The notes below the pieces were generated by a model that saw only the letters and a list, made by a program, of their open reading frames with translations, was not told where the DNA came from and made no database searches. DNA of 35,308 bases, taken from positions 1 to 35,308 of the forward strand of contig JAFPZY010000058.1 of assembly GCA_017417025.1 (NCBI GenBank), given 5' to 3'. Source of the stretch: Paludibacteraceae bacterium. Lineage in GTDB: Bacteria > Bacteroidota > Bacteroidia > Bacteroidales > Paludibacteraceae. Position 1 is the first letter of the stretch, and every line of letters starts with the position of its first letter. A program made the position numbers and the translations under genes. Positions 3,944 through 26,677 of the stretch are shown one piece after another.

Positions 3944-5344
3944 TTATTTGCGTTTCTCGAGGCGCACGACGTTCTCGACATGCTGTGTGTGCGGAAACAT
4001 GTCCACGGGCTGCACGGCAGTCACCTTGTAGAGCGGGTCAAGCAGGCAGAGGTCGCGCGCCTGTGTAGCGGGGTTGCAGCTGACATATACAATGCGGCTC
4101 GGTGCGGCGTTCATTATCACTTTCACCACGTCTTCGTGCATGCCGGCACGCGGCGGGTCGGTTATAATGACCTCAGGGCGGCCGTAAGTGTCTATGAACG
4201 AGTCGGTAAGTATGTCTTTCATGTCTCCTGCGAAGAAGAGAGTGTTGGCGAGGTTGTTGAGTCCGGCGTTCACTTTTGCGTCTTCAATGGCCTCGGGGAC
4301 ATACTCGATGCCGATCACCTGCCTGGCCCGCCCTGCGACAAAGTTGGCTATGGTGCCGGTGCCGGTATATAGGTCATACACCAGTTCGTTGCCTGTCAGG
4401 GCGGCAAAGTCGCGCGCCACTTTGTACAGCTCGTATGCCTGCTCTGTGTTGGTCTGGTAGAAGGACTTGGGGCCGACCTTGAACCTCAGTCCCTCCATCT
4501 CTTCCATTATGTGGTCTTGTCCGTGCCATGTCAGCACCTCCCGGTCGCCGATGGTGTCGTTCATCTTCATGTTTACGCAGTACATAAGACTCACTATTTC
4601 AGGGAAGTGCGCCTGTATGTCGTTCATCATGGCTTTGCCTGCTTCGCTCATCTCGCTGCCGAAAACGACCACAAGCATAATCTCGCCTTTGTGGTTGCTG
4701 CGCAGGATGAGTGTGCGCAGTTCGCCTTCGTGTGTGCGCTCGTTGTAGAAACTGAGCCCGTGGCTGACAGCGTATTCGCGTATGTGGTTGCGCAGGCGGT
4801 TGTTGATGTCGGGCATGAGGTGACATTCCTGAATATCAAGCACTTTGTCGAAGCAGTTGGGGATATGGAAGCCTAATCCGGGCTCGAATGGCACGCCCGC
4901 TTTCATCTGCTCGGCGGTGAGCCATTTGTGGTCGGCAAAGCTGAATTCCAGCTTGTTGCGGTAGCCGTAAATCTTGTTGCTGCCGAGGGTGGGGCGTATC
5001 TCCGGCAGTTCCACTTTGCCTATGCGCGTCAGGTTGTCCTCCACCTGCTGCCGCTTCCAGCGTAGCTGCTCGTCGTAGGGCAGTATCTGCCATTTGCAGC
5101 CGCCGCAGGTCCCGTAATGCCGGCATACGGCCTCGCAACGCTTGTCCGAGGGGCGTATTATCTTTTCCACACGGGCCTCCATGAAAGAGTGCTTCTTTTT
5201 TGTAACTTGCAGATTGACAATGTCTCCAGGCACGCAGTATGGCACAAACACAACTTGCTCGTCCACACGTGCCAAAGCTTTGCCCTCGGCGGCTATGCCT
5301 GTAATCTCTATGTTTTCCAGCAGGGGAAGATTCTTCTTTTTCAT
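3944..5344 (-). CDS. rlmD: 23S rRNA (uracil-5-)-methyltransferase RlmD/RumA
   Basis: The 466-aa protein is a TRAM-domain tRNA/rRNA uracil-C5 methyltransferase. An N-terminal TRAM domain (about residues 8-62) is followed by the iron-sulfur cysteines C74, C80 and C83 (CRHYGTCGGCKW), with a later Cys in IQECHLM as a probable fourth ligand. A SAM-binding loop (YDLYTGTGTI) and the catalytic cysteine motif (VYVSCNPATQ) lie in the C-terminal half. It would methylate a specific uridine in 23S rRNA (U1939 in E. coli). Bacteroidota often carry more than one paralogue, so the exact target uridine is inferred. A consensus promoter lies 18 bases upstream. Confidence 0.93.
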   Translation of the reverse strand: MKKKNLPLLENIEITGIAAEGKALARVDEQVVFVPYCVPGDIVNLQVTKKKHSFMEARVEKIIRPSDKRCEAVCRHYGTCGGCKWQILPYDEQLRWKRQQVEDNLTRIGKVELPEIRPTLGSNKIYGYRNKLEFSFADHKWLTAEQMKAGVPFEPGLGFHIPNCFDKVLDIQECHLMPDINNRLRNHIREYAVSHGLSFYNERTHEGELRTLILRSNHKGEIMLVVVFGSEMSEAGKAMMNDIQAHFPEIVSLMYCVNMKMNDTIGDREVLTWHGQDHIMEEMEGLRFKVGPKSFYQTNTEQAYELYKVARDFAALTGNELVYDLYTGTGTIANFVAGRARQVIGIEYVPEAIEDAKVNAGLNNLANTLFFAGDMKDILTDSFIDTYGRPEVIITDPPRAGMHEDVVKVIMNAAPSRIVYVSCNPATQARDLCLLDPLYKVTAVQPVDMFPHTQHVENVVRLEKRK

Positions 5345-5515: not shown

Positions 5516-5523
5516 TATCTTTG
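5516..5523 (+). promoter_or_regulatory. -7 box of the steroid-reductase operon
   Basis: TATCTTTG at 5516-5523 is a perfect -7 box 30 bases before the first ATG of the operon. The expected -33 position (5493-5495) reads TTT rather than TTG, so the promoter is weaker than its neighbours and may need an activator. It diverges from the rlmD promoter. Confidence 0.55.
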
Positions 5524-5553: not shown

Positions 5554-6330
5554 ATGGATCAGTTCTACTTTTTTATTTTCGTAGTCGCTCTTATCGGCGT
5601 TATTGTCTTTGTGTCCCTCTATTTCGTTGATGCCGGATACGGCAAGATGATTTCCGAAAAGTGGGGGCCGGCTATCAACAACAAGGTGGGGTGGATGCTT
5701 ATGGAGTGCCCCGTGTTTTTTATGATGATTTTTATGTGGGGCAGCAGTAGCGTGCGTTTTTCGCTGCCTTATATAGTCTTTTTCCTGATGTTCGAGTTGC
5801 ACTATTTCCAGCGCTCCTTTGTCTTCCCGTTGCTGATGAAGGGAAACAGCAAAATGCCACTTGTCATTATGGCGCTGAGCATAGTCTTCAACTTCATAAA
5901 CGGCTATATGCAAGGCTATTGGCTCTTTGTCAAAGCTCCGCAGGAGAGTTTTTATCAGGACATCTACACCGCTTCCTGGTTCACCGACCCGCGTTTCATC
6001 ATCGGCACCCTGCTTTTCTTTGCAGGCATGATTATCAACTGGAACAGCGACCATATTATCCGCCACCTGCGTAAGCCTGGCGACACCGCGCACTACCTGC
6101 CAAAAGGCGGAATGTACAACTATGTCACATCTGCCAACTACCTCGGCGAAATCATCGAATGGGCAGGCTGGGCTTTGCTCACGTGGAGCTGGGCGGGATT
6201 CGTCTTCTTCTGGTTCACATGCGCCAACCTCGTCCCGCGTGCAAACGCCATCTGGCACAAGTACTCAGTCGAGTTCGCCGACGAGTTCGGCAAACGCAAC
6301 CTGAAGAGAATTTTCCCTTATATATATTAA
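5554..6330 (+). CDS. 3-oxo-steroid 5-alpha-reductase (SRD5A family), integral membrane
   Basis: The 258-aa multi-pass membrane protein aligns by eye along its whole length with animal SRD5A1/2. Landmarks are the LMECP segment with Glu51, HYFQRSFVFPLL with Tyr84, NSDHIIRHLRKPGD, GGMYNYVTSANYLGEIIEW, and a C terminus ending KRIFPYIY. Family members reduce the C4-C5 double bond of 3-oxo-delta4 steroids with NADPH, giving the 5-alpha product. The residue before Glu51 is Met50, where the human enzymes have Gln. I start at ATG 5554, after the -7 box; a TTG six bases upstream is less likely. It is followed 29 bases later by an OYE-family gene and then an SDR gene, a set known from gut bile-acid metabolism. 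Confidence 0.92.
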   Translation: MDQFYFFIFVVALIGVIVFVSLYFVDAGYGKMISEKWGPAINNKVGWMLMECPVFFMMIFMWGSSSVRFSLPYIVFFLMFELHYFQRSFVFPLLMKGNSKMPLVIMALSIVFNFINGYMQGYWLFVKAPQESFYQDIYTASWFTDPRFIIGTLLFFAGMIINWNSDHIIRHLRKPGDTAHYLPKGGMYNYVTSANYLGEIIEWAGWALLTWSWAGFVFFWFTCANLVPRANAIWHKYSVEFADEFGKRNLKRIFPYIY

Positions 6331-6359
6331 GGTGTATTTTTTGATATAGCAGAAAAACA

Positions 6360-7643
6360 ATGACTGATAACAAACTTTTCACTCCTTTTCAACTGGGGCC
6401 AGTAACGCTGCGCAACCGCTTCATACGCTCGGCGGCGTTTGAAAATATGTGTACGGGCAACACGCCCTCGCAGATGCTGCACGACTATCATGTCAGTGTC
6501 GCGCATGGAGGTGTGGGCATGACCACGGTCGCTTATTGCGCTGTAGATCTTAGCGGTGTCAGCTTCGACGGGCAGCTTTACGTCCGTCCTGAAGCGCTGC
6601 CGGGCCTGAAAAAACTCACTGACGCTGTGCACGCCGAGGGCGCAAAAGCCAGCATTCAGCTCGGGCATTGCGGCAACATGACCCATTTCTCCACTTGCCA
6701 CTGCATGCCTGTCAGCGCCTCAAGCGGCTTCAACCTCTACAGCCCGACCATACATCGCGCGCTCAAAAAAGAGGAAATCAAAACGCTGGTCCGCAAGTTC
6801 GGAGAGGCGGTGGACTTCTGCCGCGAGGCGGGCTTTGACTGCGTTGAGATACATGCCGGTCACGCCTACCTCATCTCGCAGTTCATCAGTCCGCGCACCA
6901 ACCGCCGCCGCGACGAGTACGGAGGCTCCTTCGAAAACCGCGTCCGCTTCATGAACGAGGTCCTCGACGAGGTCATGCTCCATGCCAAAGACGACATGGC
7001 GGTCGTTGTCAAAACCAACATGTGGGACGACTGCTGGGGGGGCTCCGATATTGAGGAAGGCATACGCGTGGCGAAAGAGATTGCCAAACACAAAGTGCAC
7101 GGCATCGTCCTCTCCGGAGGCACCGTCAGCCGCTCGCCGATGACCATTCTCGGAGGCGCTATGCCCGTGAACACGCTCGCGCACTATATGCCGATGAAGT
7201 CGCTCTGGTGGCTCAAAGCCGCATTGCATATCCCCGGAGTCGGACCGCTGATGACCCCCACCAAACCCTTCAAAGAGCTCTATTTCATGGAGCAGGCAAA
7301 GCGCTTCCAGCAGGAGATAAAGGGCACCACGCTCATTTATGTCGGCGGCGTGCAGTCAGGCGACAACTGCCGCAGGATTATGGACGAGGGCTTCGAGCTG
7401 TTCCAGCTCGCGCACGTCCTCATCAAAGACCCTGATTTTGTGCACCATGTTGAGGCTGACGGGCACTATCATGCCGGCTGCAAACGCTCCAACTACTGCG
7501 TCGGACGCATGTACTCAAAGGAGATGAAATGCCACGACTGCGTCGAGCGCGACGGAGAAAACATACCCGCGTCCCTGAAAAAAGAGATTGCGCGCCTTGA
7601 AAAGAATGCGCAGAAATCAATCGACGCGCAGAAAAACAGATAA
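6360..7643 (+). CDS. Old Yellow Enzyme-family NADH:flavin oxidoreductase, probable 3-oxo-delta4-steroid 5-beta-reductase
   Basis: The 427-aa protein has an OYE-type TIM barrel: an N-terminal FMN-binding LGPVTLRNRFIRSA, the His165/His168 pair in EIHAGHAYLISQF, SPRTNRRRDEYGG, and a C-terminal phosphate-binding region (IYVGGVQSG). After the barrel comes a four-cysteine cluster, C374, C380, C391 and C394, which could hold an iron-sulfur centre or zinc. It lacks the FAD/NAD(P)H-binding domains of 640-680-residue BaiCD/BaiH-type enzymes, so it must take electrons in another way. Its place between an SRD5A homologue and an SDR suggests it reduces a steroid or bile-acid enone, possibly to the 5-beta product. 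Other enoate substrates are possible. It lies 3 bases before the SDR gene. Confidence 0.85.
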   Translation: MTDNKLFTPFQLGPVTLRNRFIRSAAFENMCTGNTPSQMLHDYHVSVAHGGVGMTTVAYCAVDLSGVSFDGQLYVRPEALPGLKKLTDAVHAEGAKASIQLGHCGNMTHFSTCHCMPVSASSGFNLYSPTIHRALKKEEIKTLVRKFGEAVDFCREAGFDCVEIHAGHAYLISQFISPRTNRRRDEYGGSFENRVRFMNEVLDEVMLHAKDDMAVVVKTNMWDDCWGGSDIEEGIRVAKEIAKHKVHGIVLSGGTVSRSPMTILGGAMPVNTLAHYMPMKSLWWLKAALHIPGVGPLMTPTKPFKELYFMEQAKRFQQEIKGTTLIYVGGVQSGDNCRRIMDEGFELFQLAHVLIKDPDFVHHVEADGHYHAGCKRSNYCVGRMYSKEMKCHDCVERDGENIPASLKKEIARLEKNAQKSIDAQKNR

Positions 7644-7646
7644 CCT

Positions 7647-8426
7647 ATGCTGGCACTTGTAACAGGAGCTTCATCGGGCATCGGGCTGCAGTATGCTACG
7701 GCGCTTGCCCGCGACTATCACACCGACCTGCTGCTCGTCAGCAACCAGCTCGAGGAGCAGAAGCAGGTCGCGCTCAAACTGGCTGAAGAATACGGAGTTA
7801 AGACCGTCCCGCTCTACATGGACCTCTCCTTGCCTGATGCCGCCGAGCAGCTGCACTCATGGTGCTGCGGACAGGGGCTGGAGGTGGACATCCTCATCAA
7901 CAACGCCGGTGTCTTCTTCTTCAACCCGTTCGTGGAGACTGATATCAAGCGTCTTGAGCTCATGCTCATGCTCCATGTCGTCACGGTGGCTAAGATGTGC
8001 CGCTTGTTCGGCGAAGACATGTGCAGGCGCGGCAACGGCTACATACTCAACATGTCAAGCATGTCGGCGTGGATGGCGTATCCGGGCATACAGACCTACA
8101 ACTCCACTAAGGCCTTCATCTACAATTTCTCCAAGTCATTGTGGTATGAATTCCGCCCGAAAGGGGTCGGCATTACGGTTATGACCCCCGGAGCCGTGGA
8201 CACGGCCCTCTTCGGCCTGGCACCCAAATACAGGAAACTGGCAGTGAACCTCACGGTCAGCATTCCGCCCGAAAAACTGGTGGTCAAGGCGCTCAGGCGC
8301 ATGTTCAAAAAGAAAAAATGGGGCATGCCCGGACTGCTCAACCACCTCGCCACACCGCTGCTGAAGCACACCCCCGACTGGCTCGTCTTCCTCACCTACC
8401 GCTGGGTCGCGCAGTTCCAGAAATAG
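7647..8426 (+). CDS. Short-chain dehydrogenase, probable 3-hydroxysteroid dehydrogenase
   Basis: The 259-aa classical SDR has the cofactor loop TGASSGIG (6-13), NNAG (85-88), and catalytic Ser138, Tyr151 and Lys155 (TYNSTK). The usual tetrad Asn is replaced by His110 in LMLHVVT. The overall layout, with a basic, hydrophobic C-terminal tail, resembles 17-beta-HSD12 / 3-oxoacyl-CoA reductase relatives that associate with membranes. As the last gene of the operon it would interconvert a 3-oxo and a 3-hydroxy group on the reduced steroid; a 3-beta product is suggested by the published triads. Stereochemistry cannot be read from the sequence. Confidence 0.82.
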   Translation: MLALVTGASSGIGLQYATALARDYHTDLLLVSNQLEEQKQVALKLAEEYGVKTVPLYMDLSLPDAAEQLHSWCCGQGLEVDILINNAGVFFFNPFVETDIKRLELMLMLHVVTVAKMCRLFGEDMCRRGNGYILNMSSMSAWMAYPGIQTYNSTKAFIYNFSKSLWYEFRPKGVGITVMTPGAVDTALFGLAPKYRKLAVNLTVSIPPEKLVVKALRRMFKKKKWGMPGLLNHLATPLLKHTPDWLVFLTYRWVAQFQK

Positions 8427-8620: not shown

Positions 8621-9991
8621 ATGACAATCACAACCTTGATAATCATCGCCGTCACCGTCCTTTTTGCAGGTGTGGCGCTCTTTTTCTCTGCTAAGCAGGG
8701 CAGGGAACGGCTCGCTGACGAGCAGCGCAGGACCGAAGAACTGAAAAACGACTATGAGTGCCGCTTGGCTGCACTGAAATCCGAGTGCGACAAGCGTCTG
8801 GACGAAATGAGGATTGAGGCCGACAGACGTGTCCGTGAAGCCAAAGACGAGGCGCGCGCCAACTACGAGAGGGCGCTCGAAGGGCAGAAACAGTTCTTCG
8901 ACAAGTCGTTGGCGGAAATGAAAGCCTCCGTCAACGCCGCCACAAAGCAGATGCTTCAGGACAGCAGCAACGACTTCTCCGAGCAGAGTGGCAAGCGTAT
9001 CAGCGAAATCCTCACTCCCCTCAAAGAGAAACTCAAAGAGATGAAGGAGTCTATGGACGCGGGCAAAGTCTCGCAAACTGAGCTCAGAACTGCAATGGAG
9101 GAGCAGATCCGGCACCTCATGGAGCAGACCAAACTCACGGCGGACTCGGCTGATGAACTGGCCAGAGCACTCACGCACGACCCCAAGTACCAGGGCGACT
9201 GGGGAGAGCGAGAGTGTGAGGAACTCCTTAAAAGCCAGGGACTTCGCGAGGGATATGAGTACGACAGGCAGGTCGATATCCGCTATAAGGACGAGACTGG
9301 CCGCGAGCGCCAGTTCCGCCCCGACTTTGTCCTCCACCTCGACCGCAAACGCGATGTCATTGTGGACTCCAAAGTCAGTCTCACCGCTTTCCGCGACTAC
9401 TGCGCCGCCACTGACGAAACAACGCGCCACGAGGCGCTGATGAGACATCTGGACAGCATGGAGAAGCACGTTAAAGAGCTGTCTGACAAGGACTACTCCT
9501 CATATCTCAAAGTCGGCACCACCATGAACTTCGTCATCATGTTTGTCCCCGTTACAGGGGCGCTCTGGACTGCCTTGAAAGAGAACCCTGCCCTCTGGAG
9601 GCGCGCCATGGACCAGCATGTCTATATCGCCGACGAGCAGACACTCTTCGCCGCTCTTAGCATTATACGCATGACTTGGACCAAGGTTGCACAGTTGCAG
9701 CATCAGGAGGAACTTTACGCTCTCGCCACGGAGATGGTCAAGAGGGTTGGCATGTTCTACAGCCACTTCCGCTCGGTCGGCGCGGCGCTTGACAAGCTGC
9801 AAAGCGAGTACAAGCAGTCATGTGACAAGCTTGAGGACCGTGGCACCAGCATCATCGTCACTGCCAACCAGCTTGTCAGGCTCGGGGCAAAGGCGGGTTC
9901 AGGTGCTTATGCGCTGCCCGAACTCACCGACGTGGACGACATTGCGGGCATTGCTCCGGCTGCACCCGCAGAACAGGGGGCGGAACTATGA
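8621..9991 (+). CDS. rmuC: DNA recombination protein RmuC homologue
   Basis: The 456-aa protein has an N-terminal membrane anchor (about residues 3-22), a long charged coiled coil (about 25-180), then the RmuC domain. That domain contains the restriction-endonuclease-like core: YQGDWGERECEELL, RPDFVLHLD and VIVDSKVSL supply the acidic and lysine residues of a PD-(D/E)XK fold. RmuC limits inversions and large rearrangements at repeats in E. coli, but its biochemical role is not settled. The stop codon overlaps the next gene's start (ATGA, 9988-9991), so it is translationally coupled to the AddA-like helicase. That supports a role in double-strand-break processing. Confidence 0.92.
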   Translation: MTITTLIIIAVTVLFAGVALFFSAKQGRERLADEQRRTEELKNDYECRLAALKSECDKRLDEMRIEADRRVREAKDEARANYERALEGQKQFFDKSLAEMKASVNAATKQMLQDSSNDFSEQSGKRISEILTPLKEKLKEMKESMDAGKVSQTELRTAMEEQIRHLMEQTKLTADSADELARALTHDPKYQGDWGERECEELLKSQGLREGYEYDRQVDIRYKDETGRERQFRPDFVLHLDRKRDVIVDSKVSLTAFRDYCAATDETTRHEALMRHLDSMEKHVKELSDKDYSSYLKVGTTMNFVIMFVPVTGALWTALKENPALWRRAMDQHVYIADEQTLFAALSIIRMTWTKVAQLQHQEELYALATEMVKRVGMFYSHFRSVGAALDKLQSEYKQSCDKLEDRGTSIIVTANQLVRLGAKAGSGAYALPELTDVDDIAGIAPAAPAEQGAEL

Positions 9992-12900
9992 ACAAAACTT
10001 TGACTGTTTGTCGCGCTTCGGCAGGGACGGGCAAGACTTATAGTCTCGCTGCCAACTACGTCGGGCTGCTCTTTTCCGGCGTGAGTTACAGGTCTATTCT
10101 CGCTGTCACCTTCACCAACAAGGCCACGGCGGAGATGAAGGAGCGTATCCTCGTTTTTCTTAACGGCATAGCCTACGACCCTGACAACCAGGCTTCTAAG
10201 GACGCTCTCAAGGCGGCACGGCAGCGCATGATTGCCAATCTCAAGGCCTCCGATGCCGATTTGCGGAGAATGGCCGGTGACTGCTACAGGAGCATGCTCT
10301 CCGACTACGACAACATCCACATCTCCACCATCGACCGCTTCATGCTGCGGCTCCTTCGCGGCTTGAGCCAGATGCTCGGCACTGTAGGGGCAAGCGCGGA
10401 GGTGGAACTTGACTACGACTATCTTGTTTCACGCACTGTGGACAGGCTTCTCACCGACACCGGCGGCGATGATGTCAGGGAGAGGCTCATGCATATTGCC
10501 GGAGAGACTGTGCAGAGCGGAAAGGACTGGGACATAAGGCATAGCTTGGTCAGTCTGGCAAAGGAGATGTACAACGAGCAGGTGATGGTGATGGAGGCGG
10601 CGGGCGATATTGATTTCTCTCCTGAGCGCATTCTCGCCTACAAAAAGAATGTGGACTGGCACAACTCTGCGCGCTATCCTGAGTTCGGGCGCTTGCGCCG
10701 TTTGTTGCCTCTTGTGCAGTCATGTGCTGACAGAGAGGAGATTGACAAGGGGCGCAACTACTACAGTTTCATCTCCCGTGTCAGCAACAGCCTCAAAGGG
10801 CGTGCTGTGGAGCCTTTCAAAGGGCTGGGGGAGCGTGATGCCGCTGCTCTTGACGGCGATGGGGCAAAGTTCATGAAGAAAATACAGGACGCAGGGCGCG
10901 CAAAGCTCATTTGTGACACTCTGCGCGAGATGAACGCTCTCTGCACGAAATGCCGTGAAAGCTACATAAACGCTTCTCTCACAACGTCTTTGCTTGACAA
11001 TATGGCTCTGATGGGCGACATCCGCCGCGTCATGGGCGATATACTGGCTGAGGAAAATCGCCTTCTGCTGGCGCAGACGGCTGACATCTTGCAGCGTGCA
11101 CTGAAAAGCGGAGATGCGGACTTCATCCTTGAAAAGGCGGGAATAAGATACCGTCACATCATGATTGACGAGTTCCAGGACACCAGTGCACTTCAGTGGC
11201 GGAATATCCTCCCCCTTGTGCAGGACCTGCTTGCTCAAGGCGGAACAACACTGGTCGTCGGCGACATCAAACAGAGCATTTATCGCTGGCGCAACGGCGA
11301 TTGGAGGATTATGCAGAACCTCGGTCAGGACAAGGACGAGGCTGACCCGTCAAGGGACACGCTGAAGGACTATTTCACTGCAATGAGCCTTGTTCGCAAC
11401 CATCGCTCGCGCCGTCAGATAGTTATGTTCAACCGCATGTTCTTCCGCCGTGCTGCGGCTCTCTTGCAGGCGGAAGTCCCCTCTCTTGCAGATATTTATG
11501 GTGTCGCGCTGCCGGATGCGGACGAACATGAGTATTACTTGGAAGGCAACGAGGGCGGACATGTGGAAGTGCATGTTGAGCCTAAAGAGGCGCAGGACAC
11601 AGGGACCGGACTTGAGACTATGTTCTCTGTGATGGAGACTCGTCTGGAGGCTGGCGACAAAGCCTCCGACATGATGGTCTTGATACGCTACAACCGCGAG
11701 GCGGAAGAGTTGGTTGCTGCTTTCCGTGCGCTGGACAGCACTGATTTCAGCCGGCTTAAGCAATGCCGGATAGTCTCTTGCGACAGTTTTCACCTTGAAA
11801 GCAGTGTCTCTGTGATGACTGTTATTAACGCCTTGCGCTATCTTGTTCGCGGTGATGCTGTGGCTAAAATGTATATTGACAATGTGTTGGACAGCACTCA
11901 GGCGGAGGCTTTGAGGGAGCAGAGCATTAACATTCCGCTTGTGGAACTTATCAATGCCCTTGTGCAGAAACTGCTGCCGCACAATCTCCCCGACCTCGCT
12001 TATGTTAATGCGCTGATGGACCAGACGCGCGACTATGTCGGCCGCTATGGCTCTGATAATGAGACATTCTTGCGTTTCTGGGACGACCGGATGCACTCCA
12101 TGTCTGTTTCTGCGCCTGAAGGTGACGCAATACGGATTATGACTGTGCATTCCGCCAAGGGGCTGCAGGCTAAAAATGTCTTCCTCCCATTCTTCCACTG
12201 GAAGTTGCATGACAAGAAAGGTTATCTTTGGCCGCATGCCGGGCTTGAAACGACCGACGGAGCTGGGATGGAAGGTTGCATTCCCGTGACCAAAAACAGC
12301 AGTCTGCTGGACGAAAGCGTCTATGCGCAGGTTGCTGCCAATGAAAGAAATGCGGAGACGGTGGACAATATGAATCTCATGTACGTTGCATTGACACGTG
12401 CGGAGGAAAATATGTATATCAGGGCTGTTGTCCCTGAAAAACAGATGGATAAACCTGTGCAGGACACCGTGGCAGGACTCTTGCTTAATGTCCTTGAAGG
12501 TGATTTGACTCAGACTGACAACGGGCTTGTTTACAGCACAGAAGAGGAAAAAGCAGGGAAAAGAAAGAAGAATGTGCGGCTGAAAAACCCGTTCTCAATG
12601 GAGGATGCTCAAGTACTTACGGCGGAACTGCATGTGGGGGAGCGTCCGGTGCAGTTCTGCCAGTCGCAGGAGTCGCTGCTGATGGAGGAATGGCAGGGGG
12701 AAAAGCGTATGGCGCGTATTAATCTCGGCAATCTCTGCCATGATATTTTTGCGCACATGGAGACACGTGACGACGAGGAGGCGGCAATCGGCGGAGCACG
12801 GACTAAAGGGCTGCTTCCTGATAAAGAGACGGAGGACAAAGTCCGGCACTTGATTGACAAAGCTTGGGCTGTGCCTGAGTTATGTGACTGGTTCTCCGGA

Positions 12901-13152
12901 AAATACGACCTGCTGCGGGAGGTGACTTTCCTGACCGCCTATGGACGCGACCAGCGCCCCGACCGCGTAATGATAGACAGACAGAGCCGGAAAGCGGTAG
13001 TGCTTGATTACAAGTTCGGCAAGCAGCATGAAGAGGAATATAATGGTCAGGTCAGGCGTTATATGGCACTGATGCGCGGCATTGGATATGAGCATGTGGA
13101 AGGGTGGCTCTGGTATGCGGAAGAAGGGCTTTTGCTCAAAGTCGGTTTATGA
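9988..13152 (+). CDS. addA: AddA-like UvrD-family helicase/nuclease
   Basis: This 1054-aa superfamily 1A helicase starts with the Walker A loop ASAGTGKT at residues 10-17. It continues with a motif II (HIMIDEFQDTS) and motif III region (LVVGDIKQSIYRWRNGD), and ends its helicase part with LMYVALTRAEENMYI. A RecB-type nuclease domain lies at the C terminus, with PDRVMID, VVLDYKFG and a following QVRRY as the PD-(D/E)XK core. It would pair with the next gene product as an AddAB (RecBCD-type) complex that resects double-strand breaks. Its length and gene order fit. Similar Bacteroidota proteins are usually named only UvrD-helicase domain protein. Confidence 0.88.
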   Translation: MNKTLTVCRASAGTGKTYSLAANYVGLLFSGVSYRSILAVTFTNKATAEMKERILVFLNGIAYDPDNQASKDALKAARQRMIANLKASDADLRRMAGDCYRSMLSDYDNIHISTIDRFMLRLLRGLSQMLGTVGASAEVELDYDYLVSRTVDRLLTDTGGDDVRERLMHIAGETVQSGKDWDIRHSLVSLAKEMYNEQVMVMEAAGDIDFSPERILAYKKNVDWHNSARYPEFGRLRRLLPLVQSCADREEIDKGRNYYSFISRVSNSLKGRAVEPFKGLGERDAAALDGDGAKFMKKIQDAGRAKLICDTLREMNALCTKCRESYINASLTTSLLDNMALMGDIRRVMGDILAEENRLLLAQTADILQRALKSGDADFILEKAGIRYRHIMIDEFQDTSALQWRNILPLVQDLLAQGGTTLVVGDIKQSIYRWRNGDWRIMQNLGQDKDEADPSRDTLKDYFTAMSLVRNHRSRRQIVMFNRMFFRRAAALLQAEVPSLADIYGVALPDADEHEYYLEGNEGGHVEVHVEPKEAQDTGTGLETMFSVMETRLEAGDKASDMMVLIRYNREAEELVAAFRALDSTDFSRLKQCRIVSCDSFHLESSVSVMTVINALRYLVRGDAVAKMYIDNVLDSTQAEALREQSINIPLVELINALVQKLLPHNLPDLAYVNALMDQTRDYVGRYGSDNETFLRFWDDRMHSMSVSAPEGDAIRIMTVHSAKGLQAKNVFLPFFHWKLHDKKGYLWPHAGLETTDGAGMEGCIPVTKNSSLLDESVYAQVAANERNAETVDNMNLMYVALTRAEENMYIRAVVPEKQMDKPVQDTVAGLLLNVLEGDLTQTDNGLVYSTEEEKAGKRKKNVRLKNPFSMEDAQVLTAELHVGERPVQFCQSQESLLMEEWQGEKRMARINLGNLCHDIFAHMETRDDEEAAIGGARTKGLLPDKETEDKVRHLIDKAWAVPELCDWFSGKYDLLREVTFLTAYGRDQRPDRVMIDRQSRKAVVLDYKFGKQHEEEYNGQVRRYMALMRGIGYEHVEGWLWYAEEGLLLKVGL

Positions 13153-13177
13153 TGTTTTCTAAAAGATGGTAGGTGTT

Positions 13178-15982
13178 ATGATGTTTCTTGAGGAACTTAC
13201 AGAAAATTTGATATCTAAGTACGGACTTGACGGACTGGGCGGATTGACCATTGTTTTTCCGACACGTCGTGCGGCGCTTGTGGTGAACGGCTGCATAAAG
13301 ACTCATCTTGAACAGCATGATATACGCCGTCCTGTGCAGGCTCCGGTAATGACTACGTTGAGCGGATTGTTCGACTCGTTGAGCACTTATGGGCAGGAAG
13401 ATGAATTGCGCTTGGTGAGCAAACTCTATGACATTTATTGTCGCTACGCTGAGCATATTCCGCCGTTGGACGTGTTCTATGGCTGGGGGCGGCAGTTGCT
13501 GCAGGATTTCTCCATGATGGACAAGGGCTGGCCCGATTTGCAGCCTGACGCTTTTCTTAAAAATGCATCGGCTGCACGCCGTCTTGAGGAATTGGAGCTT
13601 GACGAAGAGGTGCGCAGCCGTCTTGAAACTCTGGTGGCGGTGAACAGAAATGACAATGCTGCGGCCGGGTCTTCACGGCGGATATTCGAGTGTCTGTGGG
13701 AGAGCTTGCCTCGTATGTATGCGGACTTGCAGGTGGCTGCAGGCACGCGCACGTATGAGGGGGCGAGGATGAAAAAGGTGCTGGTTGACTGGAACTCTGA
13801 CTTTGTGCAGAAACAGCTTCGTGGAAAAATGTTTGTCTTTGCAGGCTTCAACTATCTGGTGCCTGCTGAATTGGAATTGATGCGTAGGCTGCAGAGTGCC
13901 GGACAAGCGCTCTTCTACTGGGACTATCCTGCGGCGGGAACATTCAGCTGTAATCCTAAAGCTTTCAAGTGGGTGCAGCGGAATGTTGAAAAAGTAATAA
14001 AATCCAACGAACTTCCTGTGCGCCCCTGGGAGCCAAAGGACGTAGAACTTGTTACAACAACTTCGGTGCATGCCGAGGCGCAGTTTGTCTGGCAGTGGTT
14101 GAAAGAGCACCACCATGCAGGTGACAGGACAGGAGTTGTGCTTTGCGACGAGACTATGCTTGAGCAAGTCATTTCCGCACTGCCTGATGCAGAGGAAGGC
14201 GACCCGCGTTTTGCAAGAATAAACATCACAAAAGGCTTCCCGCTTAAATATACGCCTGTCTTTGCTTTCGTGAAGAACTGGCTTTCTGACAAGAGCAATG
14301 ACAGGGCAGAAGATGAAACTTGGGCAGATGTGGTGAGAAGGTTGCTGACGGCTGTCAGTGAATATGGCAAAGTGACTCCCGCAGAACAGGAGAACTTGGT
14401 TGTGACCGGCGAAGTGACGGAAGAGTGGAGTGTGCTGCTTTCAAGAGAGGCGCATTATCGGATGATGCTGGCTCTTAACAGGTTCTGCTCTGTCGTTGAT
14501 GATGAACTTGCAGGCAAACTGAGGTCTCTGACTGCATTGCGTCTCTTGCTCAAAAGATATCTTGAGGGCATTTCTCTGCCTTTTCATGGCGAGCCGCTTA
14601 CTGACATACAGATAATTGGTGTGTTGGAAACTCGGGCTATGGATTTCGACAATCTGTTGATACTGAATGTGGAAGAAGGTGTAGTGCCGCAAGTGGGAGA
14701 AGACTTGTCCTATTTCCCGTTCTATCTGCGCAAGGCATACGGCATGCAGACTGCTGAAGAGAGCACAGATGTATATGCCTATAATTTCTTCAGGCTGATG
14801 CGGCGTGCGCGGCATGTTACTCTTACTTATTGCGGGAGCGAGAGTAAAAACAACCGCAAAACAATGTCCAGATTTGTTATGCAGATGTTGGCAAGCAACG
14901 ATTTCAATATACGTAAATTTGCTCTGAATGAGCGGAATGAGATGCGCCCTCCTGTCTGTCAGCAGCCCGACAATCAGGAGAACAGTTCGTTGTTGTCTTT
15001 GTTGCATCCTGGTGAAGACGGTATGTTGTGCCGTCCGGACGGCAAAGTTATGCGCTTGTCGCCGTCGGCCCTGAATACATACCGCACTTGTCCGATGGAG
15101 TTTTATCTGGCTTATGTCAAAGGCATACGTCCTGAAGAAGAAACCGGTGATTTGCTCTCACGCGCCGAACTTGGCAGACTTGTGCATCAGACCATCCAGT
15201 GCCTGTATGAACATCTTAACGGCGGTAGAATAGAGCAGCCTATGCATGTCACGGAGGAAATGATTGACAATGTGGCAGATGGTTTGCTGGAGGAGATGCT
15301 TGGTAGGTCTTATTGTGTGCTGAATGAAGAGTGGGAACGTGAGCATAAGGGGGAAGTTTGTCACTATATGAAGGAGCAGCATGCTGTAGAAAATCTGACG
15401 GTTCTGCATTATGTGCGGCATATATTGTCGGCTGACAGACTTGCTGCAGAAAAAGGACTTCGTATATTGGCGTTGGAGCGTGACTGCTCGTTTGTCATTG
15501 AGCTGCCTGAAATAGGCAAAATCAGGGTTGGGGGCCGTGCCGACCGCATAGACATGCTTGGCGGGCAGGTTAGGATTGTGGACTACAAAACCGGCAGCGC
15601 TGATGTCTCTAAACTGCGAATTCCGCCTGCAGAGACAGAAGAAGATAGTATTAAGGAACTTTTCGTACAAAGCGATAAGCCCGGCTATCAGTTGCAGACA
15701 CTCATATATTCAGAGGCTTATAGTGCACAGAAAAATGGAGATACAGCGGTGTTGCCTGTTGTATATTTTGTGCGCGAACAAGGCGAGGACATAGCGCAGT
15801 CAGTCACCATGAATAATGCCCCTCTGGATTATAGCCGTGTGCGTCAGGTTTTTCTGGATACTTTGACTGAATATGCAGGAATGATTCTTACCGACACTGA
15901 ACACCGCCGTGCAGAAGAAGGGCATTGTGACCCTTATTGCCCCTTCTATATGCTTTGCGACAGACAAAAAAAGGATTTTTGA
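13178..15982 (+). CDS. addB: AddB-like PD-(D/E)XK nuclease subunit
   Basis: This protein of about 934 aa opens with a degenerate helicase-like domain (LTIVFPTRRAALVV) and ends with a nuclease domain. The nuclease region shows RTCPMEFYLAYV, GRLVHQTIQ, GGRADRID and VDYKTG. Near the C terminus CDPYCPFYMLC gives a C-X3-C-X5-C set that, with the Cys of RTCP, matches the four-cysteine iron-sulfur staple known from AddB. Three in-frame ATGs (13166, 13178, 13181) are possible starts; 13178 or 13181 gives the N terminus MFLEEL that best suits the family. A strong bidirectional terminator follows at 16025. Confidence 0.87.
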   Translation: MMFLEELTENLISKYGLDGLGGLTIVFPTRRAALVVNGCIKTHLEQHDIRRPVQAPVMTTLSGLFDSLSTYGQEDELRLVSKLYDIYCRYAEHIPPLDVFYGWGRQLLQDFSMMDKGWPDLQPDAFLKNASAARRLEELELDEEVRSRLETLVAVNRNDNAAAGSSRRIFECLWESLPRMYADLQVAAGTRTYEGARMKKVLVDWNSDFVQKQLRGKMFVFAGFNYLVPAELELMRRLQSAGQALFYWDYPAAGTFSCNPKAFKWVQRNVEKVIKSNELPVRPWEPKDVELVTTTSVHAEAQFVWQWLKEHHHAGDRTGVVLCDETMLEQVISALPDAEEGDPRFARINITKGFPLKYTPVFAFVKNWLSDKSNDRAEDETWADVVRRLLTAVSEYGKVTPAEQENLVVTGEVTEEWSVLLSREAHYRMMLALNRFCSVVDDELAGKLRSLTALRLLLKRYLEGISLPFHGEPLTDIQIIGVLETRAMDFDNLLILNVEEGVVPQVGEDLSYFPFYLRKAYGMQTAEESTDVYAYNFFRLMRRARHVTLTYCGSESKNNRKTMSRFVMQMLASNDFNIRKFALNERNEMRPPVCQQPDNQENSSLLSLLHPGEDGMLCRPDGKVMRLSPSALNTYRTCPMEFYLAYVKGIRPEEETGDLLSRAELGRLVHQTIQCLYEHLNGGRIEQPMHVTEEMIDNVADGLLEEMLGRSYCVLNEEWEREHKGEVCHYMKEQHAVENLTVLHYVRHILSADRLAAEKGLRILALERDCSFVIELPEIGKIRVGGRADRIDMLGGQVRIVDYKTGSADVSKLRIPPAETEEDSIKELFVQSDKPGYQLQTLIYSEAYSAQKNGDTAVLPVVYFVREQGEDIAQSVTMNNAPLDYSRVRQVFLDTLTEYAGMILTDTEHRRAEEGHCDPYCPFYMLCDRQKKDF

Positions 15983-16567: not shown

Positions 16568-18508
16568 TTAATCCAATTGCTCATAAATGGAGTTTTTGCT
16601 CTTGTATTCCGGCACAATCTGTTTCATTTCTTTCACTGTTTTCATCGGTTTGTCAAGTGCCGCGGTCTCAATCAGACTGTCAATAAGCGGGCTTACTACG
16701 TCATATTCCGACTCGCGGACTTTGGCTATCATTATTTTCTTGTTGGAGGTCGGCATGGTAGTCTCTTTCTGGTTAAGGACTTCCTCATATAGCTTTTCCC
16801 CCGGACGCAGACCTGTGAATGTTATCATTATGTCCTCTCCAGGCTTGTATCCGGCGAGACGTATCATGTTCTTGGCTAAGTCGTAAATGCGGACCGGTGT
16901 CCCCATGTCGAACACAAATATCTCTCCTCCGTTACCCAGTGTGGCAGCTTCAAGGACAAGTGTGCAGGCTTCCGGTATGGTCATAAAGAAGCGTGTAATA
17001 TCGGGATGTGTAACCGTAACCGGTCCTCCGGAGGCAATCTGTTTTTTGAAATATGGTATTACAGAGCCGTTTGACCCGAGCACATTGCCGAATCTGGTGG
17101 TTATGAACTTGGTGCAGTTTTCGTTTTGCTGCTGAAGTTTGCGGAATAGCGACTGTACGTATATTTCGGCGATGCGCTTTGAGGCCCCCATGACATTGGT
17201 GGGATTCACAGCCTTGTCGGTGGAAATCATAATAAATCGCTTAACGTCATATTTGACACTTAAATCCGCCACGTTTTTTGTTCCGAGTATGTTTGCCATC
17301 ACAGCCTCGTTGGGATATTCCTCCATCAGCGGAACATGCTTGTATGCTGCAGCATGGAATACTACGTCCGGGCGGTATTCGCGCATTACTTCTTCAAGCC
17401 GCTCACGTTGGCGGACATCGCCGATGACTGCAATGACAGATGTGTCAGGGTGCAGATTGCGTAAATCCATGCGGAGGTCGTGCAGCGGCGATTCGGCTTG
17501 CTCGAACAGGATGACGGCTGCCGGATTGAAGCGCAGTACCTGGTGTACAATCTCTTGTCCGATACTTCCTGCTGCTCCTGTTACTAACACCACTTTGCGG
17601 CGGAGAACCTGCTCCACATGGTCGGTGTTTATTTGTATCACAGGGCGCTCAAGCAAGTCTTCTACGCGTATCGACTCTATGGCACCTATTCTTTTTTGCA
17701 TGTTTGTCTCAACGTTCTCGGAGTTGCTCGGCTCGATGTCAGTGAAGTGCGGCGTGGTCAGCACTGAGATGCCGTTGTCTATAAAGATGTGTAGGTCGGT
17801 CAGAGGGTTCAGTTGCTTGAATTTGACAGGAGAAATAATGACATAGCGTATGTTTTTCTCCAGCATCATCGGCACAAGTTTGGAGTCGCGCACATACACC
17901 GGCAGCCCCAGCAAATCGTGTCTCATGTCATCTGTCTTGTCGGCTATAAAACCTATAGGGCGGTATAGGCTCTCAATGTCTGATTTCAGCATCTTGGCTA
18001 TGCTGATGCCGGCACTCTGTACACCATATACAAGTACTTTTTTTGTGCGGTTGCCGACATGTGACATGTACTCAAAGCTTGTCTTGATGGTCACGCGCCA
18101 TGTAAACAGCAGTACTATTCCGATGAATACATATATAATAATCAAAGAGTTAAGGAACAGTTTGCTGTTAAATCTTGTAGCGATTGTGTTTACAAACAAT
18201 ATTAGTGCTCCTGAAGATATTACCGACAAGCCCACCCGTATTATGTCATTGAAGTTTGAATAGCGGAGAATACCGGCGTATGTGTGGAACACGAGGAAGA
18301 ATACTGTCTGCACCAGAAGTACTGACATTGCCTGCTGCCACGCGGGCATGGTCATGTCTTCAGGTCTGTATGTAATGAGTTGGTAGCCTATAAAATAGCT
18401 TGTGGCAAAAGCAATCAGGCATATAAGCATGTCAAGCAGCAACACTCCCCAACGCGGCAAATAGTCGAGAGTGATAATATAATCAAGAAAGTCCCTCCTT
18501 TGTTTCAT
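16568..18508 (-). CDS. Membrane-bound nucleotide-sugar 4,6-dehydratase (WbpM/FlaA1/CapD type)
   Basis: The 646-aa protein is the long WbpM-type form. It has four N-terminal membrane segments (about 18-42, 60-80, 94-114, 118-138), a first Rossmann-like domain, then an SDR domain with GAAGSIG at 311-317. The catalytic region STDKAVNPTNVMGASK has Met440 in place of Tyr and Lys444, the signature of large UDP-GlcNAc 4,6-dehydratases. It probably converts a UDP-HexNAc to the 4-keto-6-deoxy sugar that the adjacent aminotransferase uses. It is the last gene of the glycan unit, 61 bases downstream of the aminotransferase, with a 20-bp repeat in between. Confidence 0.92.
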   Translation of the reverse strand: MKQRRDFLDYIITLDYLPRWGVLLLDMLICLIAFATSYFIGYQLITYRPEDMTMPAWQQAMSVLLVQTVFFLVFHTYAGILRYSNFNDIIRVGLSVISSGALILFVNTIATRFNSKLFLNSLIIIYVFIGIVLLFTWRVTIKTSFEYMSHVGNRTKKVLVYGVQSAGISIAKMLKSDIESLYRPIGFIADKTDDMRHDLLGLPVYVRDSKLVPMMLEKNIRYVIISPVKFKQLNPLTDLHIFIDNGISVLTTPHFTDIEPSNSENVETNMQKRIGAIESIRVEDLLERPVIQINTDHVEQVLRRKVVLVTGAAGSIGQEIVHQVLRFNPAAVILFEQAESPLHDLRMDLRNLHPDTSVIAVIGDVRQRERLEEVMREYRPDVVFHAAAYKHVPLMEEYPNEAVMANILGTKNVADLSVKYDVKRFIMISTDKAVNPTNVMGASKRIAEIYVQSLFRKLQQQNENCTKFITTRFGNVLGSNGSVIPYFKKQIASGGPVTVTHPDITRFFMTIPEACTLVLEAATLGNGGEIFVFDMGTPVRIYDLAKNMIRLAGYKPGEDIMITFTGLRPGEKLYEEVLNQKETTMPTSNKKIMIAKVRESEYDVVSPLIDSLIETAALDKPMKTVKEMKQIVPEYKSKNSIYEQLD

Positions 18509-18525
18509 AGTCTTCTGATTTGTAC

Positions 18526-18585
18526 GTGTTCAGACAATGTCCTTTGTGTTTAGACAATGTCCTTTGCGTTTAGATAATGTTTTTT
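18526..18585. repeat. 20-bp tandem repeat, 3 copies, overlapping a gene end
   Basis: Units at 18526-18545 and 18546-18565 (GTGTTYAGACAATGTCCTTT) differ at one base. A third, more diverged unit at 18566-18585 runs into the stop codon and last codons of the aminotransferase gene. This suggests the repeat grew outward from the gene end. Confidence 0.85.
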
Positions 18586-19811
18586 ATAATGCTGTTTATG
18601 ATAAACTGCACGTCTTCGTCACTGACCATAGGTCCTGACGGCAGGCACAGCCCGCGTTTGAAAAAGGCTTCGGCATTGCCGTTTATGTAAGCCGGTGCAT
18701 TGCGGAAAACGGGTTGTTTGTGCATCGGTTTCCAGAGCGGACGGCTTTCAATTCCCTCTTTGTCAAGTGCAAGGCGCATTGCTTCCACGTTGCGGTTGGG
18801 CTCACAATCGGTGTGAACCGAGCCGCCGGCATGCACAACGCCTGCTGCACCGCCGACAGCCCCACTGACGGCTTCGGCGTATGCGTTTTCCTCTCCACGG
18901 ACATGCATGTTGTCGTCAAGCAGGATGGTGCTGAGCCAGAAATTGCTGTCGTGACGCGCAGACGGGTTGTCGTGATAAGTAATACCGGCAACATGTTGAA
19001 ATGCCTCTTTGTAGAGTTGTGCAATATGTTTGTGGTGTGCAAGGTGGTCGTTGATTACGGTCATCTGTCCGCGTCCTATGCCTGCGCAGATATTGGAAAG
19101 GCGGTAGTTGAAGCCAATGGCCTCGTGCTGGTAATACGGATATGCCTCACGCGCCTGTGTGGCGTACCACATTATTTTGTCTTTGGCCGCTTTGTCAGGA
19201 CACACAAGCGCTCCGCCTCCTGAGGTGGTAATCATCTTGTTGCCGTTGAACGAAAGAATACCGTATTCACCGAATGTGCCGCACACCTGGTCGTCAAAGC
19301 GGCTGCCGAAACCTTCGGCTGCATCCTCAATCACCGGAATGTTGTATTTGGCGGCTATTGACATTATCTCGTCAATGCGTGCCGGCATGCCATAAAGATA
19401 TACGGGAATGATGGCTTTCGGATAACGTCCGGTTTTCTCCTTGCGGTCTGTTATTGCTTTTTCAAGGAGCTCAGGGTCCATGTTCCAGGAGTCAGGCTCC
19501 GAGTCTATGAATACAGGTTTGGCACCCAGATATGTAACAGGGTTGGCTGAAGCGCAGAATGTGAACGACTGGCATATCACTTCGTCGCCCGCCTGCACTC
19601 CGCAGGCGATAAGTGCAAGGTGAATGGCTGCCGTGCCGGAAGAGAGGGCTACTACCTCTTTGTCCTGCCCGACAAACTGCCTGAGGTCGTCTTCAAAACC
19701 GTTTACATTGGGGCCGAGGGGGACAACCCAATTGGTGTCGAAAGCCTCCTGTATATACTTTTGCTCCTTTCCGGACATGTGTGCGAGGCAAAGATAAATT
19801 CGCTTGTTCAT
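18570..19811 (-). CDS. DegT/DnrJ/EryC1/StrS sugar aminotransferase (PglE-like)
   Basis: The 413-aa PLP enzyme shows the sugar-aminotransferase hallmarks: VALSSGTAAIHLAL, EDAAEGFGS with the PLP-binding Asp163, and SFNGNK with the Schiff-base Lys192. It ends with ESRPLWKPMHKQPVF and LCLPSGP. It would place an amino group on C4 of the 4-keto-6-deoxy sugar made by the neighbouring dehydratase, as PglE does in bacillosamine synthesis. Residues 309-340 carry a Gly/Ala/Val-rich stretch before the PLWKPMH region. This may be normal for Bacteroidota relatives. The start overlaps the end of the cytidylyltransferase gene by 4 bases. Confidence 0.92.
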   Translation of the reverse strand: MNKRIYLCLAHMSGKEQKYIQEAFDTNWVVPLGPNVNGFEDDLRQFVGQDKEVVALSSGTAAIHLALIACGVQAGDEVICQSFTFCASANPVTYLGAKPVFIDSEPDSWNMDPELLEKAITDRKEKTGRYPKAIIPVYLYGMPARIDEIMSIAAKYNIPVIEDAAEGFGSRFDDQVCGTFGEYGILSFNGNKMITTSGGGALVCPDKAAKDKIMWYATQAREAYPYYQHEAIGFNYRLSNICAGIGRGQMTVINDHLAHHKHIAQLYKEAFQHVAGITYHDNPSARHDSNFWLSTILLDDNMHVRGEENAYAEAVSGAVGGAAGVVHAGGSVHTDCEPNRNVEAMRLALDKEGIESRPLWKPMHKQPVFRNAPAYINGNAEAFFKRGLCLPSGPMVSDEDVQFIINSIIKNII

Positions 19812-20509
19812 TGCTCTGTCTGTTCTTTTTCCAGCAACATCTGCATCAACAGCAGGTCTTGCGGATTCGTGATTTTTATATTCCGGCTCTCGCCTTTTAT
19901 AATCTTTATTTTTTCTTTCTCCAAATATCGTGCCACAACGCTGCAGTCGTCAGTGGGGCGGGAGCCGGTGTCGGCAGCCGCGAGGCTGTAGGCTTCCGCT
20001 ATTACGCTGCATCTGAAGACCTGCGGAGTCTGTGCCAGAAAGAGTGTCTCCCGTGGCGGAATAGCGCATAGTTGTCTGTCGGTGCCGGCCTGCCATACGG
20101 TGTCTGTGGCCGGTATTGCCACTCCGGCGGCATTGCAACTTTCCATCGCCGATATGCAGTCGCTGATGATGCGGCGGCTTACCAGCGGGCGTGCTCCGTC
20201 GTGAATAAGAAGAATGTCGTCTGCTTCATAGAGTTTTATTGCCGCCTGCGAAGAGTCAGAGCGCTCTTTTCCTCCTGTAATTATGTGTCTGACTTTGCTG
20301 AAGCCTGCCCGGGCTATAACAGCCTTTGTTTGTGTCATCCAGTCTGCGTGGCTCACTATGCATATTTCGTCAATAAGCGGGTGCTCCTCAAATGCGCTTA
20401 TTGTATATTCAATAATCGTCCGCCCGCCTGTCTGCAGCAGTTGTTTGGGTATGTCTGCACCGATGCGCCGGCCTGTGCCCCCCGCTAATATGATTGCCGC
20501 TGTCTTCAA
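19808..20509 (-). CDS. IspD/TarI-family cytidylyltransferase
   Basis: The 233-aa protein carries the IspD-family motifs: the nucleotide-binding LAGGTGRRIGADIPKQ, HDGARPLVS in the middle, PPRETLFLAQTPQVF, and PTDDCSVV. The family transfers CMP to a polyol phosphate. IspD makes CDP-methylerythritol for isoprenoids, while TarI/Bcs1 make CDP-ribitol for surface polymers. Its position inside a glycan operon, overlapping both neighbours by 4 bases, favours a glycan role such as CDP-ribitol. The sequence alone does not separate the two, and no TarJ-type reductase is adjacent. Confidence 0.85.
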   Translation of the reverse strand: MKTAAIILAGGTGRRIGADIPKQLLQTGGRTIIEYTISAFEEHPLIDEICIVSHADWMTQTKAVIARAGFSKVRHIITGGKERSDSSQAAIKLYEADDILLIHDGARPLVSRRIISDCISAMESCNAAGVAIPATDTVWQAGTDRQLCAIPPRETLFLAQTPQVFRCSVIAEAYSLAAADTGSRPTDDCSVVARYLEKEKIKIIKGESRNIKITNPQDLLLMQMLLEKEQTEQ

Positions 20510-21114
20510 TTTGTGCCGTCAAAATATGGTGCAGTCGCCTGCTCGTTTGCCGAAATGCCCTCACGGACAAACACTTTCTTTATCGTGAGGAGGAATATTT
20601 TTACGTCAAGTCTGAAAGAGAGATGGTCAACATACCATACATCGTATTCAAACTTCTTTGTGTGCGTTATTGTGTTCCGCCCGTTTACCTGTGCCCAACC
20701 TGTAATGCCGGGCCGCACTTCATGGCGTCGGTGCTGCTCTGCGGAATACAGGGGCAGGTATCTAGTCAGCAGCGGGCGTGGTCCGATGAGCGACATGTCG
20801 CCTTTTATCACGTTCAGCAGTTGCGGCAACTCGTCTAACGACAGCGACCGGACCATGCGCCCTGTTCCTGTTATTCTGTCTTTGTCAGGCAGCAGGTTCC
20901 CGTTCTTGTCGCGTTTGTCGTTCATCGTTTTGAACTTTATCAGTCTGAAGAGCCTTTCTCCTTTTCCAGGGCGCTCTTGTGTGAAAAACACTCCGGCTCC
21001 CTCGTTGGCGACTGCAAGCAGAAGCATTGTAAGTAACAACAGCGGACTCAGGCAGAGCAGTGCCATGAGGGCAATGCAGAAATCCAACAGCCGTTTTATG
21101 AAGTTCTTGTACAT
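20506..21114 (-). CDS. Initiating phosphoglycosyl transferase (PglC/WcaJ-type bacterial sugar transferase)
   Basis: The 202-aa protein has one N-terminal hydrophobic segment (about 10-35), followed by the small monotopic phosphoglycosyl-transferase domain. Its motifs are QERPGKGERLFRLIKFKTM, LSLDELPQLLNVIKGDMS, LIGPRPLL and RPGITGWAQVNGRN. The short length is that of PglC rather than the longer WbaP. It would transfer a sugar phosphate from a UDP-sugar to undecaprenyl phosphate at the inner membrane face, starting assembly of the repeat unit. Given the neighbours, the likely donor is a UDP-diamino-trideoxy sugar. It overlaps the cytidylyltransferase by 4 bases and abuts the upstream acyltransferase gene. 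Confidence 0.93.
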   Translation of the reverse strand: MYKNFIKRLLDFCIALMALLCLSPLLLLTMLLLAVANEGAGVFFTQERPGKGERLFRLIKFKTMNDKRDKNGNLLPDKDRITGTGRMVRSLSLDELPQLLNVIKGDMSLIGPRPLLTRYLPLYSAEQHRRHEVRPGITGWAQVNGRNTITHTKKFEYDVWYVDHLSFRLDVKIFLLTIKKVFVREGISANEQATAPYFDGTN

Positions 21115-22592: not shown

Positions 22593-22595
22593 AAT

Positions 22596-24190: not shown

Positions 24191-24198
24191 AGTGCCAA

Positions 24199-24927: not shown

Positions 24928-24944
24928 GAAATGTCAATTATCAA

Positions 24945-25915: not shown

Positions 25916-25939
25916 AAAAATATCAGTTATCAATTAACT

Positions 25940-26569: not shown

Positions 26570-26646
26570 CCGGTAGTTTTCAGTATTTCGTCTCTGCTTC
26601 TTTCCTGTTGTCCCATTTGCCGCGCAGGGCGGTTTTATTCAACTTG

Positions 26647-26677
26647 CAAAGGTAATACATTTTTTCCGATTATGCAA
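26647..26677 (-). promoter_or_regulatory. Promoter of the acyl/amino-sugar glycan operon
   Basis: On the minus strand TACCTTTG (26654-26647) is preceded by TTGCATA (TTG 26677-26675) at 20 bp. Transcription would start near 26640. Genes from 26569 down to 16568 follow with overlaps or very short gaps, so one long transcript is likely. Confidence 0.8.

Follow-up and report, generated by a model that had tools for sequence, protein, structure and literature searches.

A probable three-gene operon for steroid A-ring reduction, with an SRD5A homologue, in a ruminant-associated Paludibacteraceae bacterium

The window analysed here, 35,308 nucleotides from a Paludibacteraceae bacterium (Bacteroidales; GenBank assembly GCA_017417025.1, contig JAFPZY010000058.1, positions 1 to 35,308), is one whole contig of a genome of 2.18 Mb in 64 contigs that is 89% complete. 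It carries a three-gene operon that probably serves the isomerisation or reduction of the A ring of 3-oxo-delta4 steroids, and that is of a kind published for Bacteroidota. The first gene (5554..6330, plus strand, 258 aa, Pfam Steroid_dh) encodes a homologue of the SRD5A family of membrane 3-oxo-steroid 5-alpha-reductases, the second (6360..7643, plus strand, 427 aa, Pfam Oxidored_FMN) an ene-reductase of the old yellow enzyme (OYE)/FMN family, and the third (7647..8426, plus strand, 259 aa, Pfam adh_short) a classical short-chain dehydrogenase (SDR) of the type called A below, presumed to carry out a 3-keto/3-hydroxysteroid step. A preliminary description of this DNA had proposed a tightly packed trio, and the open reading frames, the single strand, the gaps (29 bp between SRD5A and OYE, 3 bp between OYE and SDR) and the Pfam families all agree with it; the three genes are a real operon. 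Added here are a setting near the ruminant forestomach, a fixed Met in the QEY motif of SRD5A, two SDR types and a near-obligate occurrence of OYE with SRD5A.

In the proposed pathway, the SRD5A homologue would pass a hydride from NADPH to C5 on the alpha face of a 3-oxo-delta4 steroid, yielding a flat 5-alpha (A/B-trans) 3-ketone. The OYE would act on a neighbouring ring double bond, most likely interconverting 3-oxo-5-beta and 3-oxo-delta4 forms, and together the two enzymes could turn kinked 5-beta steroids into 5-alpha steroids, or delta4 steroids into either isomer. The SDR would then reduce the 3-ketone. The substrate may be a bile acid, a host hormone or a plant-derived sterol.

The SRD5A homologue, for which the ATG at 5554 is used as the start (an in-frame TTG also occurs at 5548), is firmly assigned to its family by sequence, fold and catalytic Glu and Tyr. 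Pfam Steroid_dh (PF02544) matches it at 8.5e-40, with 136.6 bits against a gathering score of 22.6. Its closest solved relatives are bacterial PbSRD5A (PDB 7c83; 2.9e-57) and then SRD5A2 (7bw1; 9.4e-40), the human enzyme that reduces testosterone, to which it is 34% identical in a structural alignment. An AlphaFold model built with 21 sequences (pLDDT 86.8) is matched by Foldseek to the same two structures (TM 0.86 to 7c83, 0.80 to 7bw1), the third-ranked match having an E-value of 0.19. The catalytic residues E51 and Y84 correspond to E57 and Y91 of SRD5A2 and are the same in 121/121 loci compared, and the NADPH-site residues N162, D166, R173, N195, Y196, E199, T222, N225 and R229 are retained. 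Residues were mapped using the sites given in PMC7815742, our source for the SRD5A mechanism, with 17/17 and 13/13 named residues agreeing with the numbering. The enzyme had been described as animal-like, which is apt only in that it shares its family with human SRD5A2; the best solved relative is bacterial. Transfer of the gene from an animal is rejected on that ground, and because nearly all sampled members of the genus carry the gene, as do many other Bacteroidales families.

An enzyme of this fold might instead act on a polyprenol or enoyl substrate in a non-steroid lipid pathway, which we consider very improbable. SRD5A3 acts on polyprenols, and the window protein matches the enoyl-CoA reductase art-1 weakly (1.1e-5). 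However, both sequence and fold are much nearer the steroid 5-alpha-reductases, and disruption of the 5-alpha-reductase (5AR) gene of Parabacteroides merdae alters bile acids, preventing formation of allolithocholic acid (alloLCA) derivatives (PMC10382948).

Steroid A-ring chemistry by an operon is also favored by the linkage of SRD5A with OYE. Our named relatives are the best 80 of 586 confirmed matches, all from Paludibacteraceae or other uncultured Bacteroidales, and counts at their loci come from tblastn. OYE lies downstream of SRD5A at 77/80 of these loci, within 600 bp at 76 and within 200 bp at 72, so the adjacency is not due to chance. SDR-A was found at 64/80 (61 within 300 bp of OYE); given 77 loci with OYE and 64 with SDR-A, the SRD5A-OYE pair is the core and the SDR a loose part. 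A wider sample comprised 344 Bacteroidales genomes, of which 85 match the window SRD5A at E<=0.001; 78 were kept at a limit of E<=1e-20 and seven weak ones dropped. At a limit of E<=1e-100, which was our choice, OYE is present in 48/344 genomes, and 47 genomes have both genes where ~11 would be expected, although the genomes are related, so that a co-occurrence probability should not be read literally. The sole OYE-bearing genome without an SRD5A match is G325, and the occurrence of OYE with SRD5A is near-obligate. Since the two genes co-occur even when on different contigs (11/47 genomes), we argue that they share one pathway.

Several observations on the three proteins and on their linkage weigh against an A-ring operon of the proposed kind. 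In the SRD5A homologue, the QEY motif reads M-E-Y, with M50 in place of Gln, and Met holds this position at 121/121 Bacteroidales loci, Phocaeicola included (106 loci with >=47% identity, 15 with lower). The Gln is conserved in the enzymes studied in PMC7815742, and human Q56A/L mutants are inactive (PMC7815742); the Met therefore counts against equal activity. Family membership is not in doubt on this account, the Gln being no criterion of the Pfam family. Further replacements in the window protein are Lys for R34, H180 for Y177 and I233 for H230 of PbSRD5A, and W234 for H231 and S238 for Y235 of SRD5A2, the latter two in a region aligned with less certainty.

The OYE is a clear family member (Pfam Oxidored_FMN, PF00724, 2.6e-56), but it scores only 171.6 bits against the NCBIfam BaiCD profile (NF041087; cut-off 825), and the match covers profile positions 2-255 of 642, the barrel only. 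In a profile search, the FMN-barrel family alone matched and no FAD domain was found; no other PF00724 protein was found in the organism's own genome (89% complete). The motif HAGH-A-YLISQF places the catalytic Tyr of FadH type at Y170. In an alignment of the window OYE with 96 relatives, one row of which has an X at the motif, C104 is conserved in 97/97 rows, H168, Y170, S173 and Q174 in 96/97 each, and a group of Cys near the C-terminus in 96/97 (Cys 374, 380 and 391, each) and 78/97 (Cys 394). The residue before the Tyr is A in 50 rows, G in 41 and S in 5, and four residues after the Tyr there is Q in 96. In the window OYE these residues are A169 and Q174, assigned by their distance in the motif from the catalytic Tyr. 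They stand at the two positions that define clades in PMC12238238, where hormone 5-beta-reductases have N and S and bile-acid ones have Tyr or Ser together with Glu; the window OYE has the residue pair of neither clade. Its membership of BaiCD or of the hormone-type 5-beta-reductases is rejected by these residues and by the BaiCD score, and a 5-beta-reductase role for it is left unsupported. By sequence, it looks like a third type, shared with Phocaeicola (55% identity).

Rather than a 5-beta-reductase, the OYE could be an enzyme that reduces delta1- or delta6-3-ketosteroids, or some other enone, and so supplies SRD5A with delta4 substrates. This is an unlikely reading, although it would fit the A, G or S with Q at the clade-defining positions, the existence of a delta6-3-ketosteroid reductase family (described in PMC12238238), and the finding that OYE hardly ever occurs without SRD5A (47/48 genomes have both). 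The literature on the Bacteroidota cluster takes its OYE as a 5-beta-reductase, as a hypothesis in PMC10382948 and as a statement of fact in PMC12697870.

The SDR (Pfam adh_short, 4e-35) is the least constant member of the operon. Two SDR types, both of them classical adh_short proteins, follow OYE in the order-level loci (L140-L159): type A, which is the window's, and type B, alone or in tandem, with A then B at nine loci (L143, L144, L146-L149, L152-L154). Among the rows compared, identity is 33-80% within type A, 33-71% within type B and 16-32% between types, and in a quick tree of 36 rows a branch with support 100 separates the two types. In the Phocaeicola massiliensis cluster the third gene is an SDR-B, 25% identical to the window SDR, and the two are not orthologs. 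No close SDR-B relative was found in the organism's own genome (best E 5.8e-10, identities 25-36%). That genome does contain a second A-type SDR, a 44% paralogue of the window SDR (L210, 6118-6984), which stands between genes for an M16-type peptidase and a phosphoribosyltransferase, with no steroid genes among the neighbors as judged by eye. Because the window SDR is of another type than that of Phocaeicola and has this paralogue elsewhere, its assignment to C3 is a guess from gene position, and the proposal that it sets C3 stereochemistry is left unsupported. With the dehydrogenase slot held by two SDR types, annotations copied between species may be wrong there.

The linkage also has exceptions. 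SDR-A was not found at 16/80 named loci; three of these (L081, L120, L128) end in or soon after OYE, and L071, L109 and L114 also lack OYE in the flank. In the order-level sample, 31/78 SRD5A-bearing genomes have no OYE at E<=1e-100, and OYE linkage, taken as a label, costs 7 changes on the SRD5A tree. Thirteen distant Bacteroidales loci (34-42% SRD5A identity) have no OYE beside SRD5A, and a quick SRD5A tree (71 rows, with a warning on a long row) splits them from the gut type with support 100; OYE is on another contig in at least three of the distant-SRD5A genomes (G136, G188, G236). In the literature searched, which leaves most subscription papers outside it, we found no report of the cluster in Paludibacteraceae and no activity of an enzyme from this family.

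The distant loci have a feature of their own. A gene of 324-335 aa ends just upstream of SRD5A in 7/13 of them (L162, L164, L166, L168, L170, L172, L180). The one at L162 (5207-6184, minus strand) matches Epimerase and 3Beta_HSD, with HpnA (1e-65) and the sterol demethylase SdmB (4e-59) below cut-off; it was scanned with profiles, three more were seen as sequence and the rest are known by length alone. The upstream gene and SRD5A are a possible sterol gene pair.

The preliminary description had the operon reduce 3-oxo-delta4 bile acids or host steroid hormones. Steroid A-ring chemistry stands as the best reading, but bile acids as its substrate are unproven. Among the matches listed, the nearest relatives were sampled from the omasum and reticulum of roe deer, from reindeer and from rumen, some record titles giving no site, and the omasum, reticulum and rumen precede bile entry. 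Record titles placed 17 of the 80 named loci in the forestomach or abomasum and 13 in the hindgut or faeces; the other 50, whose titles give no such site or were not used, were set aside. SRD5A was found with OYE at 16/17 forestomach or abomasum loci and at 13/13 hindgut loci. Steroid_dh is above cut-off in 59/61 genus genomes sampled, with a match at E<=0.001 in 26/26 of the good ones; SRD5A is near-universal in the genus, some members of which live in the forestomach, and this raises doubt that bile acids are the native substrate. The bile salt hydrolase (BSH) family, by comparison, is above cut-off in 18/61 genus genomes and full-length (>200 bits) in 6, and there is no BSH-family match in the organism's own genome (89% complete). 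Because the forestomach kin keep SRD5A with OYE, and because BSH is sparse in the genus and has no match in the organism's own genome, a role in bile-acid metabolism only is less likely.

A bile-acid specialist, which would turn secondary bile acids into iso-allo forms in the way suggested for P. merdae and Odoribacteraceae and have bile acids as its selected substrate, nonetheless deserves tentative consideration. The gene types are those of the reported cluster (PMC10382948), and rumen contents given bile acids gained allocholic acid (alloCA) and 3-beta epimers (PMC11193847), for which the cluster is a candidate source of the alloCA; 5-alpha-reductase is absent from the 15 enzymes named in a passage of that paper, whose full list has 82. 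The organism's own genome has one match to SBF, the bile acid:Na symporter superfamily, just above its cut-off (25.9 vs 24.3 bits). Full-length BSH-family genes occur in 4/5 hindgut but 0/8 forestomach or abomasum genus genomes (Fisher p 0.007). This comparison cuts both ways and rests on 13 site-titled genomes, all SRD5A-bearing by construction, of which those from the hindgut seem closely related and are not independent cases; 2/6 full-length cases fall outside it, and partial matches of 35-42 bits, above cut-off, occur in 3/8 forestomach or abomasum genomes. The forestomach origin of the nearest listed relatives and the missing BSH match both count against such a specialist.

The same forestomach origin would suit the handling of sterols or hormones there, with plant sterol or saponin enones, or host hormones in saliva and feed, converted to 5-alpha/5-beta stanols. 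We regard this as doubtful, though the 16/17 forestomach or abomasum loci that pair SRD5A with OYE and the retention of SRD5A in far more genus genomes than BSH (59/61 vs 18/61) point towards it. PbSRD5A responded chiefly to progesterone (PMC7815742), and PMC12238238 suggests that the enzymes it studied, which are from other bacteria, might also act on bile acids and phytosterols. Against it, no sterol gene was recognised among the window genes scanned, no search having been aimed at genes that form plant-sterol enones.

A broader idea joins these strands: SRD5A and OYE may be an old, near-obligate pair of Bacteroidales enzymes that isomerises the steroid A ring and was selected for a substrate other than bile acid, and which in ruminant Paludibacteraceae would be genus-wide, act on forestomach plant-sterol or hormone enones and be joined by another SDR type than in Phocaeicola. 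As a whole, this is speculative and rather unlikely to be correct. If it were true, promiscuity of the pair could explain the alloCA formed when rumen contents receive bile acids. In the human colon, the Bacteroidota 5AR cluster has been considered as a source of immune-active allo bile acids.

Upstream of the operon, a Bacteroidota -7-like box, TATCTTTG, lies at 5516..5523 on the plus strand. The description of the genes as standing behind a single -7 box is right as to its presence, but the window has 28 matches to the pattern TANNTTTG against 16.5 expected, and no TTTG was found at the usual -33 spacing from the operon's box (9 other window sites do have a TTTG). Because the pattern is common and the TTTG partner missing, the promoter is weak evidence, and the box was rejected as a strong indication of one. 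On the left, the gene for the 23S rRNA methyltransferase RlmD (3944..5344, minus strand; NCBIfam TIGR00479, 349.4 bits vs cut-off 183.55) is divergent from the operon and outside it. On the right, an RmuC-family gene (8621..9991, plus strand; Pfam RmuC 3.3e-79) is co-directed, begins 194 bp downstream of the SDR and is taken to be outside the operon. At 9988-15982, a UvrD-like helicase gene adjoins a PD-(D/E)XK nuclease gene, a pair that we take to be AddAB-like. A long run of sugar and lipid genes fills 16568-31682 on the minus strand: a polysaccharide synthase/epimerase, a DegT aminotransferase, a sugar transferase, two sugar-transfer ATP-grasp proteins and two glycosyltransferases, with KAS III-like, AMP-binding, two adh_short_C2 SDR and hexapeptide transferase genes. 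The run resembles a cluster for a surface glycan or glycolipid.

Among characterised proteins, the SRD5A homologue resembles PbSRD5A (7c83) and human SRD5A2 (7bw1) in fold, catalytic Glu and Tyr and most NADPH-site residues, and differs from PbSRD5A by Met for the QEY Gln, Lys for R34, His for Y177 and Ile for H230. With BaiCD and the gut steroid-hormone 5-beta-reductases (PMC12238238), the window OYE shares the OYE/FadH-type FMN barrel and the catalytic Tyr (Y170); it differs in length (427 aa vs a BaiCD profile of 642), in its BaiCD score (171.6 vs 825 bits) and in the residues at both clade positions.

At the level of the cluster, a counterpart is found in Phocaeicola massiliensis (OY726067.1, locus L140, labelled a plasmid in its assembly), the one named record of Bacteroides type that was found, with SRD5A (53% identity) and OYE (55%) arranged as in the window in order and strand; it differs from the window in its third gene, the SDR-B, and in having citrate synthase upstream. 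A search of plasmids gave this record, one Nocardia record at 35% and no other match. The likeness to the Bacteroidota 5AR cluster, which the preliminary description had pointed out, is upheld by the enzyme families. Strains of P. merdae, O. laneus and B. dorei convert 3-oxo-delta4-LCA to isoalloLCA, and the 5AR gene shares its cluster with genes for a predicted 3-beta-hydroxysteroid dehydrogenase (3-beta-HSDH) and a BaiCD/BaiH-like oxidoreductase (PMC10382948); the cluster of 5AR, 5-beta-reductase (5BR) and 3-beta-HSDH is also treated in PMC9645264 and PMC12697870. The window likewise has, in a member of the Bacteroidales, an SRD5A-type gene 29 bp from that of a BaiCD/BaiH-like NADH:flavin oxidoreductase, followed by an SDR, here of type A. 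Sequence comparisons of the cluster genes were made with Phocaeicola and with further Bacteroidales families. Likened in this way by gene types, through published descriptions, the window cluster appears to be of a kind already reported in Bacteroidota rather than new in kind, and differs in its ruminant Paludibacteraceae host, whose nearest kin are from the forestomach.

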